NCBI GenBank assembly: GCA_007693505.1 | Contig: REDL01000055.1 | Span: 1-64,000, forward strand | Direction of reading: 5' to 3' | Length of the DNA: 64,000 nt | From: Desulfovibrionales bacterium | GTDB lineage: Bacteria; Desulfobacterota; Desulfovibrionia; Desulfovibrionales; Desulfonatronaceae | In this document: positions 179-4,392 of the stretch, piece after piece | How positions within the stretch are numbered: position 1 is the stretch's first letter | How the letters are laid out: each line of letters starts with the position of its first letter | Position numbers and translations under genes: made by a program | The notes under the pieces: generated by a model | The model's input: the letters and a program-made list of their open reading frames with translations, nothing else | The model's database searches: none | Told to the model about the DNA's origin: nothing

Positions 179-1198
179 TCAAGTGCGTCCGAACCGCACC
201 GCCGCCTTGGCCATGGCCAGCGCGGCGCTGAAGATTCTCGCCGCGTCAGCGGGCTTGGTATGGTATCCGCTGGTTTTGGTGGTGTGTTGGCGGACTACCA
301 GTACTTCCACATTGTTCTCCACCTTAAATTCCTTGATAGCGCCCCTGGGCAAGGAAATATTACTGGTAGACGTTTCCAGGTCAAAGCCCGGCCTGGCCAC
401 CAAAACCACATAGGCATAGGGGTAGCTCGTTCCCTTGACGTCGTTGGTCACCACCTGAACGTACATGCCCAGAAACGTCTCGGGCGCATCCGGAATCCGG
501 ATGCGCAGTTTGACATCCTCCGGAATTTTCGTCTCCCCGCGCAGGAGCATCATCACCGTGACCTGATCCTCATCGATCTCTTGCCGGGCACTGCTGATAA
601 TGGACTCCAGGGCCTCTACCTTGACCATCACCTTGGGGAGCCGCAGAATGCGCCGGGTGCCGGTGATCCAGTGCGGCCCCAGCAAGATCAGGGCATTGAA
701 CAGCAGTATCCGGACCTCAGGGGGGTACGGTGCGAACCCGTATTCCAGATAATGAACAATCGCATAAGCCATTGGGGCCGCGATAACGCCCAAAGTGATC
801 AGCCCCAGTGTATTGGTCACGTCCATAGCCGAGCGGTTCCAGCGCAGCATGTTCCGGTCCAGCTCCTGGAGATCATGCAAACGCTGGATATCCATGCTCT
901 CCCAGTCTGTATCCGGACTGAAGCGGCCGCTTTCCACCCGGTTATGATACCCTTGGACACAAAGCAGTACCGAGCCGGCCAGCAACAGCAGAACTCCGGA
1001 CATGAAAGAACCGGTCAAGGCCTGGATCAGAAGGCCGGCGATGATCAGGATGAAGGAAAGAGCCAGCCGTTTGCCGTAGGCCATGAACGGCCAGAAGTGG
1101 AACACAACGATGCCGCGCTCTTCCAGAGACAAAGCGATTGGTGACTCGGAACCGGATGGACGGGCAATGAGAGGTGTGCCGGAGGTGGTCGTGTTCAT
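179..1198 (-). CDS. Multi-pass membrane protein, third gene of the radical SAM / CHSA-repeat set
   Basis: 339 residues that I cannot place in a named family. Two adjacent hydrophobic segments lie near residues 45-65 and 66-85. A short, charged, helix-prone loop follows (ESMDIQRLHDLQELDRN), then two more hydrophobic segments near 130-153 and 163-182, and a soluble C-terminal half rich in beta-type segments. GAGG-like GAGGCCGCCCC precedes the ATG. It begins only 13 bases after the radical SAM gene ends, so it is almost certainly co-transcribed with that gene and with the CHSA-repeat protein. It may anchor, export or protect the modified product, but that is inferred only from position. Confidence 0.75.
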   Translation of the reverse strand: MNTTTSGTPLIARPSGSESPIALSLEERGIVVFHFWPFMAYGKRLALSFILIIAGLLIQALTGSFMSGVLLLLAGSVLLCVQGYHNRVESGRFSPDTDWESMDIQRLHDLQELDRNMLRWNRSAMDVTNTLGLITLGVIAAPMAYAIVHYLEYGFAPYPPEVRILLFNALILLGPHWITGTRRILRLPKVMVKVEALESIISSARQEIDEDQVTVMMLLRGETKIPEDVKLRIRIPDAPETFLGMYVQVVTNDVKGTSYPYAYVVLVARPGFDLETSTSNISLPRGAIKEFKVENNVEVLVVRQHTTKTSGYHTKPADAARIFSAALAMAKAAVRFGRT

Positions 1199-1210
1199 GG
1201 GGCGGCCTCT

Positions 1211-2719: not shown

Positions 2720-4392
2720 CGTGACCCGCCGCTGACGCAAGCCGAGTGACAGGCGGAGTGACAGGCCGAATGGCACGCGGAGTGGCAAGCCGAATGGCAC
2801 GCGGAATGGCACGCGTCGTGACAAACATTCATGTCAAAACTTGGCGACATGTTGATAAAGCTGCGCTGGAGGTGATCGCTGTCCACGGGAATGGCCGCTT
2901 CGTGTCGCCATGGGTCTTCCTGACAGGCATAGCGCCGTTGATAGCGGGGGTGGTCATTGTGGTACCAGTAATACCAGCGATTATACTCGGTATCCTGCCA
3001 GCGGTTCTCCCTGGCGGCTGTTTCGCGGGTCTCGGAGTCATATCCGGCGATGCGCTCCCGCCAAAAAGCCTGGGTGGCCGCAACATCGCAATCCCAGGCC
3101 TTTTGCTGCACGGCCCTAACGGCCATGTTCATGATCTCCTCCAGCTCCTGCTGGGAAAGTTGCCCATCATTGGCAAAGGCATGGATGAACATCCGCTCGT
3201 AGATGTCCAGCTGGGCATCCGGAGGACGCAGAACCTTGGCCTGAAGCGTTGGCTGCTCCGTCGTCACCTCCAGATACCCTTCCCGAACCAAAGACGTGAA
3301 CATGGCGCTCAGAATCTGGCGAAAGGGAATCTCCAGATAAAAGGCTGCTTCCAGGGGACTCAAATCCTTGCATATCTTGCCTTTGACCCGGAAATTGGAC
3401 AGCACCAGCTTGGGCGGGGTCCAGTCCAGGGTGTCCCAGCGAATGGCGTCCAGCCCCCGATGGGCCTTGACCATGGACCGCTGCTTGCCGACCATCAACA
3501 GGTAGAAAAAAGCCAAAAGAACCACCGCGCCGGGAACGAACAGGGCATTTACGCCGAAAAACAGCGAGTCCGCCCCGTGCTCCGATCGCCCCCTGCCGGT
3601 TAGCTCGCGCAAGGAGTCCACTGCCTGACCGACCATCCCCGAAGGCGCGACCTGCAGGGCGGCCACGTCAAACCAGACTGCGGGCAGATAGATCTGCACC
3701 CGCATATGATACCGATTTCCCGGCGCACTCCGGTGAAACAGCAGCACCAACCGATCGTGCTCGCCCCGCTGGTAGTCGATCCGGTAGCGCTCATTGACCC
3801 AAGGCTCGGTCAGCACGAGGTCGTTTTCCAGGACATACGCCCGGGCATCCAGGACGTGCGCCGGAAGCTCGAGGGGCGTATGCACCCGCAAGGTGTAGTG
3901 GCGCTGGCGCTCCGCCTCGTCCCACTGTACCGGGGACCAGTTGAAGACCACCAGCTCCCGCCCATCCTCCGCCGTGGTCGGTTCCAGATATCCGGCCTGG
4001 GCAAAGTCGGTGGGAAACCAGAACTGATAGGTCACATGCCCGGAGCGCACCCCCTGCCCGCGCTCCAGAAGTATTTCATACGCATCGCGCTGCAAACGGT
4101 TGATCTCCAGGCCGTACCGATTCCCGGCGTCATCCACGGCATGGGATCGGTCGCTGAACCGCCCCACAGCCAAACGGTCACTCCCGGAAAACACAAATCC
4201 TCGCAACCGATCCCCCACAACCCGCCACTGCACCGTATAGGCCACCACCGCCGACCCATCCGCGTTCAAATCCACATCCGTCTCCACGAAGTGGACATCG
4301 CCCTTGCGGGCCTGGGCAGGAGCGGAAACACTCAAAGCCATCCCGGCCAGCAGCCAGACCAGTATACCCAACCAAGCAAAGTTCCGGACCAT
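2716..4392 (-). CDS. DUF2207-type membrane protein with C-terminal Cys-His-Ser-Ala repeat tail
   Basis: 558 residues. A signal-anchor ([17 protein letters not shown]) leads into a beta-rich outer domain at about 30-270 with DUF2207 character, a single transmembrane helix at about 279-301, and a cytoplasmic part with the [13 protein letters not shown] winged-helix-like segment. A Trp/Tyr/Arg-rich linker at about 464-500 comes before a tail at 524-558 made of CHDA, six CHSA units and CVSGGSR: eight Cys spaced every four residues. GAGAGGTAAAG supports the ATG at 4392; a longer frame lacks a signal. The predicted topology puts the tail in the cytoplasm, where the overlapping radical SAM enzyme would act. 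DUF2207 and its relatives are known for low-complexity Gly/Cys tails (from memory); the substrate role is inference. Confidence 0.85.
   Translation of the reverse strand: [558 protein letters not shown]
2740..2823 (-). repeat. Seven 12-base units encoding CHDA/CHSA
   Basis: The units encode Cys-His-(Ser or Asp)-Ala seven times in register. Synonymous codons vary between units (TGC/TGT, CAT/CAC, TCC/TCG, GCG/GCT/GCC), so the peptide repeat is better conserved than the DNA repeat. That argues for selection on the protein tail rather than a fresh slippage array. Confidence 0.9.

Follow-up and report, generated by a model that had tools for sequence, protein, structure and literature searches.

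A candidate radical SAM/SPASM modification system for the Cys-His-Ser-Ala tail of a DUF2207/TIGR04222-like membrane protein

Introduction

Enzymes of the CteB and SkfB type, which carry an N-terminal RRE, form thioethers on peptides, and both their RRE and their SPASM/twitch regions have been described (PMC8326336). TvgB shows that a single radical SAM enzyme can modify the units of a four-residue repeat (PMC9062424). The three-gene cassette that we describe here resembles TvgAB with its poly-TVGG substrate (PMC9062424), as well as the SCIFF/ranthipeptide system CteAB and freyrasin (PMC8326336), in that a SPASM radical SAM enzyme adjoins a substrate with repeated or multiple motifs, and its enzyme may have an RRE-like N-terminus as CteB and SkfB do. 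It differs from them in its candidate substrate, a membrane protein of ~550 aa with a Cys-His-Ser-Ala (CHSA) tail that is nearly fixed across phyla, and in its gene content, which includes an extra membrane protein, whereas neither a transporter nor a protease is conserved with it.

Radical SAM enzymes are also paired with repeats in the CXXX-repeat (TIGR04117), ACGX (TIGR04340), and His-Xaa-Ser (HxsC4, NF038332) systems, and those of the CXXX kind have a Cys at every fourth residue, as the CHSA tail does. However, TIGR04117 scored only 11.4 bits on the cassette against a cut-off of 50, and the ACGX and HxsC4 radical SAM models scored far under theirs. To our knowledge, the quinohemoprotein system of QhpD has neither a repeat tail nor a membrane anchor, unlike the cassette. 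The likeness to QhpD, a quinohemoprotein-subunit maturase, is that a radical SAM enzyme forms Cys thioethers on a protein and not on a free peptide (PMC8326336).

Membrane proteins of a related kind have been linked to another enzyme class: in 2025, some TIGR04222 proteins were proposed as MNIO substrates via Gly-Ser-Cys tails in a copper/RiPP context, with tails predicted to be periplasmic and with no mention of SPASM (PMC12452194). Those systems share with the cassette a related membrane anchor, a low-complexity Cys-rich C-terminus, and a proposed modification target; in contrast, the partner here is a radical SAM enzyme, and the tail follows a strict CHSA pattern and is predicted to be cytoplasmic. 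A literature search for the CHSA motif or for DUF2207 together with radical SAM returned nothing relevant, though it covered few subscription journals and an earlier description is possible.

Results and discussion

The window that we analysed is a stretch of 64,000 nucleotides from a Desulfovibrionales bacterium (assembly GCA_007693505.1, contig REDL01000055.1, positions 1 to 64,000), and the cassette occupies positions 179-4392 on its minus strand, in the order precursor membrane protein, radical SAM/SPASM enzyme, third membrane protein (Table 1). The precursor stop overlaps the enzyme start by ATGA, as the initial annotation of this DNA had reported, which makes translational coupling of the two genes likely, and ORF coordinates gave comparable stop/start overlaps in several relatives. 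The third gene begins 12 bases after the enzyme stop, one fewer than the 13 given in that annotation.

Table 1. Features of the cassette in the window (all on the minus strand).
Feature	Position	Description
Precursor (candidate substrate), 558 aa	2716..4392 (-)	Signal peptide, periplasmic beta domain, one TM, cytoplasmic domain, CHSA tail
Predicted signal peptide, residues 1-28	4309..4392 (-)	From sequence and hydropathy
Single TM helix, residues 283-301	3490..3546 (-)	Four Lys/Arg immediately C-terminal
Precursor cytoplasmic domain		Winged-helix-like (TIGR04222/DUF2207_C-like)
Tail CHDA(CHSA)6CVSGGSR, residues 524-558	2719..2823 (-)	Invariant across phyla
ATGA overlap	2716..2719 (-)	Precursor stop/radical SAM start
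Radical SAM/SPASM enzyme, 502 aa	1211..2719 (-)	PqqD-like region fused at N-terminus; 11 invariant Cys
PqqD/RRE-like region, enzyme residues 33-90	2450..2623 (-)	Starts WVDEFIANVRPYVVVRLEDNLLIRMPNQAYKLN; PqqD E 0.015; highly conserved
Radical SAM core match, residues 154-302	1814..2260 (-)	CxxxCxxC = C158, C162, C165
SPASM region	1325..1573 (-)	C383, C397, C400, C415, C452, C455, C461, C465 invariant
Third gene (mem3), 339 aa membrane protein	179..1198 (-)	C-terminal beta-rich domain; co-occurs with the other two

The precursor ends, as first described, in one CHDA and six CHSA units with eight Cys spaced four residues apart. It had been called DUF2207-type, a label from which we retain the distant likeness and drop the family membership, all scores being below threshold: DUF2207_C matched at E 0.023 (14.8 bits against a Pfam gathering score of 33), the DUF2207 N-domain matched five relatives (best E 3.5e-4) without reaching the Pfam gathering score, and TIGR04222 scored 28.8 bits in the window precursor against a cut-off of 43, with weak matches in 9/12 relatives (best E 1.7e-7). 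Hydropathy indicated a signal peptide and one TM helix followed by four Lys/Arg on its C-terminal side, and the tail is therefore predicted to lie in the cytoplasm, on the enzyme's side of the membrane, the same topology that the initial annotation had predicted. An AlphaFold model placed a periplasmic beta domain before the TM helix and a helical domain past it, and drew the tail as a helix at very low confidence (pLDDT <50). The sole fold match was to the periplasmic beta domain, which resembled the N-domain of M1 aminopeptidases, although the TM-scores were low and the match spanned only a portion of the protein.

Precursors across the family are membrane proteins of ~490-620 aa. That of UASB270 has a TPM domain (E 4.4e-38) in place of the N-terminal domain and shares its C-terminal module and tail with the other precursors; because both are retained there, the conserved part of the precursor, as judged from these sequences, is the tail plus the cytoplasmic domain. 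The UASB270 protein also runs on beyond its CHSA tail as GGGGSSGGGGASGGW. In one planctomycete (G695), the precursor is split into two reading frames by a frameshift or assembly error (L079 7744-9398), with enzyme, third gene, and tail intact.

Among eight cross-phylum precursors (alignment A2), the 33-residue tail was 100% identical, against a mean identity of 47.4% over the remainder of the chain. A letter-perfect low-complexity tail on a half-diverged protein is very unusual, and would imply that a specific chemical product is made from it. Between the window and its relatives, 6-26 of 32 tail codons differed with no residue changes, and adjacent CHSA units differed synonymously (e.g., TGC CAT TCC GCG, TGC CAT TCG GCT, and TGC CAC TCC GCG). 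Because silent differences are abundant while the residues are unchanged, selection acts at the protein level, and the different synonymous codons of neighbouring units show that the repeat did not arise by recent duplication of the DNA. The tail is repetitive, and pattern searches of this kind also catch microsatellites in other genomes, as would be expected if a DNA tandem repeat lay beside the radical SAM gene by chance. That explanation has a negligible probability and we ruled it out, since codons vary among units and species around an unchanged protein and the tail is conserved in 24/24 genomes. Constraint from an overlapping gene was likewise dismissed, as variation at third codon positions is unrestricted and the radical SAM reading frame does not extend to the tail in L016 and L018.

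Among 186 CHxx units, we counted 156 CHSA, 21 CHDA, 7 CHSG, and 2 CHAA. Cys and His were constant within arrays, and position 4 was Ala except in CHSG, which was the last unit in all seven cases. Planctomycetota members varied in unit copy number and hardly in unit sequence. Loci with a CHSGGSF terminus grouped together as a single supported clade, whether the tree was built from the enzyme or from the third gene. The constancy of Cys and His over all these units could also mean that the tail is an unmodified metal site (a Cu, Zn, Fe, or Fe-S carrier), with the radical SAM enzyme acting elsewhere, for example on a small molecule or on the third protein. Cys and His at i, i+4 would give two helix faces, in a helix modelled with very low confidence, and work on copper and RiPPs has discussed Cys-tailed TIGR04222-type proteins as targets of a different class of enzyme (PMC12452194). 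However, Ser and Ala, which metal ligation does not require, are nearly fixed too, even across phyla, suggesting that the whole unit is read by an enzyme, and the terminal motif tracks the enzyme clade. As tail and enzyme also co-occurred without exception in our surveys, we regard a metal site alone as unlikely.

We detected the cassette in 24 genomes of at least four phyla (Planctomycetota, Bacteroidota, Gammaproteobacteria, and Thermodesulfobacteriota, plus unplaced bacteria), comprising the window, eight genomes from a species-genome scan, four from same-genus and same-phylum searches (G002, G004, G006, and G381), and 11 from a Planctomycetota survey. The eight scan loci, with enzyme identities of 48-58%, came from Planctomycetota, Sedimenticola, Desulfococcus, Bacteroidetes, UASB270, BMS3Abin01, and one further bacterium, and each of those genomes held a single CHSA array. 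A CHSA-tailed precursor accompanied the enzyme in 24/24 genomes and two surveys revealed no enzyme-free tail, a pattern that supports the original suggestion that the enzyme acts on the tail. A check set beforehand asked whether homologous radical SAM genes usually lie beside DUF2207 proteins free of Cys repeats, and they do not, every one of the 24 having the tail.

Precursor and enzyme were found in the identical 4/8 genomes of the genus, and across 395 genomes of the window's phylum the enzyme occurred in two, to which the (CHxx)4C pattern was likewise confined. Enzyme and tail fell in the same nine of 199 Planctomycetota genomes, where the tail pattern reached 14 by including five genomes with microsatellites of other sequence; these apparent tails without an enzyme (CHRP, CHGE, CHDE, and similar) were discarded. 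The third gene was present in the same nine Planctomycetota genomes, with a 94-residue fragment in G587, and in 23/24 cassette genomes overall, the remaining locus (G721) ending at a contig edge. Within Bacteroidota, 1/198 genomes carried the cassette. From these sequence patterns, the putative enzyme-substrate pairing is strongly supported, and the CHSA tail is very probably the enzyme's substrate.

The system is rare and patchy in these surveys, which are samples of mostly metagenome-assembled genomes. Two planctomycete assemblies had the cassette split between contigs, G639 (L074 / L123) and G482 (L062 / L064), and an apparent second CHSA array in G639 proved to be the same locus divided by a contig end. 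Since that break lies inside the repeat, counts made on draft genomes may miss some cassettes of this kind. Our plasmid search gave no match, and the IMG/VR sequences that fitted the tail pattern belonged to a different repeat family or to a short frame arising by chance; contigs L028, L029, and L030 carry a common repeat with a frame that superficially contains CHSA runs and is, as far as we saw, unrelated to the cassette.

Gene order was constant across cassettes, with two unrelated genes between enzyme and third gene in UASB270, encoding a CBM21/endonuclease-phosphatase-family protein and a PLD-like protein. That cluster (L018 1281-13019) additionally contains two more TPM-domain proteins and a subtilase. 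Different lineages had no flanking genes in common, and tree topology disagreed with the division into phyla, so the cassette appears to travel as a unit. The subtilase gene after the UASB270 cassette and an M48 peptidase downstream in the same-genus genomes G002 and G006 could suggest that the membrane protein is a mere carrier from which the modified tail is cleaved for export in the manner of a RiPP, and a leader region followed by core repeats follows RiPP-like logic. However, these peptidases belong to different families, each in a single lineage, neither proteases nor transporters accompany the cassette consistently, and the precursors are membrane proteins of the length given above, which makes a cleaved peptide quite improbable.

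The enzyme had been described as having a PqqD-like/radical SAM/SPASM architecture. Its Radical_SAM (1.8e-23) and SPASM (6.5e-8) matches were significant in Pfam, and the PqqD-like N-terminus remained below the Pfam cut-off in the window enzyme and in the family, where 6/12 members matched (best E 0.0085). This region is probably a substrate-recognition domain, going by its sequence. Eleven Cys were invariant in 22/22 homologues: the three of the radical SAM motif and eight in the SPASM region, where CX2CX5CX3C is present. The eight would suffice for two fully ligated auxiliary 4Fe-4S clusters under our provisional ligand assignment. An internal TGA that seemed present in a planctomycete enzyme was dismissed once G695 was inspected, as the alignment had run past the natural stop.

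Comparison with NCBIfam placed the enzyme below every family cut-off, including the curated ones of the ACGX, Hxs, GeoRSP, AhbD/NirJ, PqqE, and mycofactocin radical SAM equivalogs. The top scores (bits/cut-off) were AhbD 124/500, NirJ2 111/500, and GeoRSP 99/400, followed by HxsC4 94.4/500 and PqqE 94/381; ACGX scored 72.8/400. The best-scoring models are thus heme-tailoring enzymes (AhbD, NirJ2) and not peptide maturases, which counts against a peptide-maturase reading. By sequence, the closest solved structures were SkfB, PqqE, and archaeal tetraether lipid synthase, with CteB further down.

These scores, in which AhbC and NirJ join AhbD and NirJ2 at the top, together with the many repeated Cys-His pairs, would fit an enzyme that produces or completes a cofactor, tetrapyrrole-like or otherwise, for subsequent attachment to the tail, with CHSACH as a CxxxCH haem-type array. 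All of them are far under the family cut-offs, however, and an N-terminal PqqD-like fusion is characteristic of peptide maturases. Haem of the c type is canonically attached at CxxCH, on the far side of the membrane from the cytoplasm, whereas the CHSA tail is predicted to be inside. With no gene recurring beside the cassette across lineages either, attachment of such a cofactor seems highly improbable.

The third protein, noted originally as a membrane protein of unknown family, did match no Pfam family. We also found no PDB match to it, either by sequence or by fold, though its model was fair (mean pLDDT 78.5).

G732 (L073 6743-9919, G732:C43) encodes a more distant radical SAM relative (E 3.7e-71), and the next gene codes for a DUF2207-like protein whose cytoplasmic domain is homologous and which ends in a Cys-rich Gly/Cys/Ala tail, GGSGGGGGGCACAGCACACACAGGGR; the locus is possibly a sister system with this tail in place of CHSA. 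Canonical TIGR04222 proteins of Planctomycetota (L081-L086) have Gly/Cys tails of the GCGGGGCGGCGG type, and no CHSA-type radical SAM gene lay within about 1.5 kb of those loci. Taken with the proposal for MNIO enzymes (PMC12452194), the CHSA cassette suggests that two or more classes of enzyme act on the Cys-rich tails of such membrane anchors.

We propose, with a probability of roughly 0.7, that the three-gene cassette modifies a membrane-anchored protein post-translationally, on each unit of its cytoplasmic CHSA tail. In the mechanism that we envisage, the enzyme's PqqD-like N-terminus would dock on the cytoplasmic region of the precursor directly before the tail, and the 5'-deoxyadenosyl radical would take a hydrogen from one residue per CHSA unit. 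A Cys thiol, probably held on an auxiliary cluster, could then close a thioether, so that small rings would follow one another down the tail like the rungs of a ladder. The CHSA unit offers no obvious thioether acceptor residue, which counts against such a ladder, and we hold this product tentatively, at somewhat less than even odds. Because the cassette holds no protease, the product would remain on the membrane protein, and the third membrane protein may assemble with, or read, the modified tail. With its His side chains free, the modified tail could take part in metal or redox chemistry on the inner face of the membrane. The fullest form of this proposal, a new protein-bound cofactor in which a radical SAM-made ladder of Cys cross-links and aligned His form a metal- or electron-carrying tail handled by the orphan membrane partner, is speculative and rather unlikely.

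Conclusions

The cassette is best read as a new radical SAM/SPASM modification system whose target would be the cytoplasmic tail of a DUF2207/TIGR04222-like membrane protein, and we rank the metal-only, haem-loading, and cleaved-peptide readings below the modified-tail reading. Since a candidate substrate and a candidate enzyme have been identified side by side, the pair lends itself to a direct test in E. coli. If the proposal is true, radical SAM peptide chemistry would extend from small exported peptides to a permanent mark on a membrane protein, and the uncharacterised Cys-tailed membrane proteins of the DUF2207/TIGR04222/TPM kind would be linked to a second enzyme class besides MNIO.
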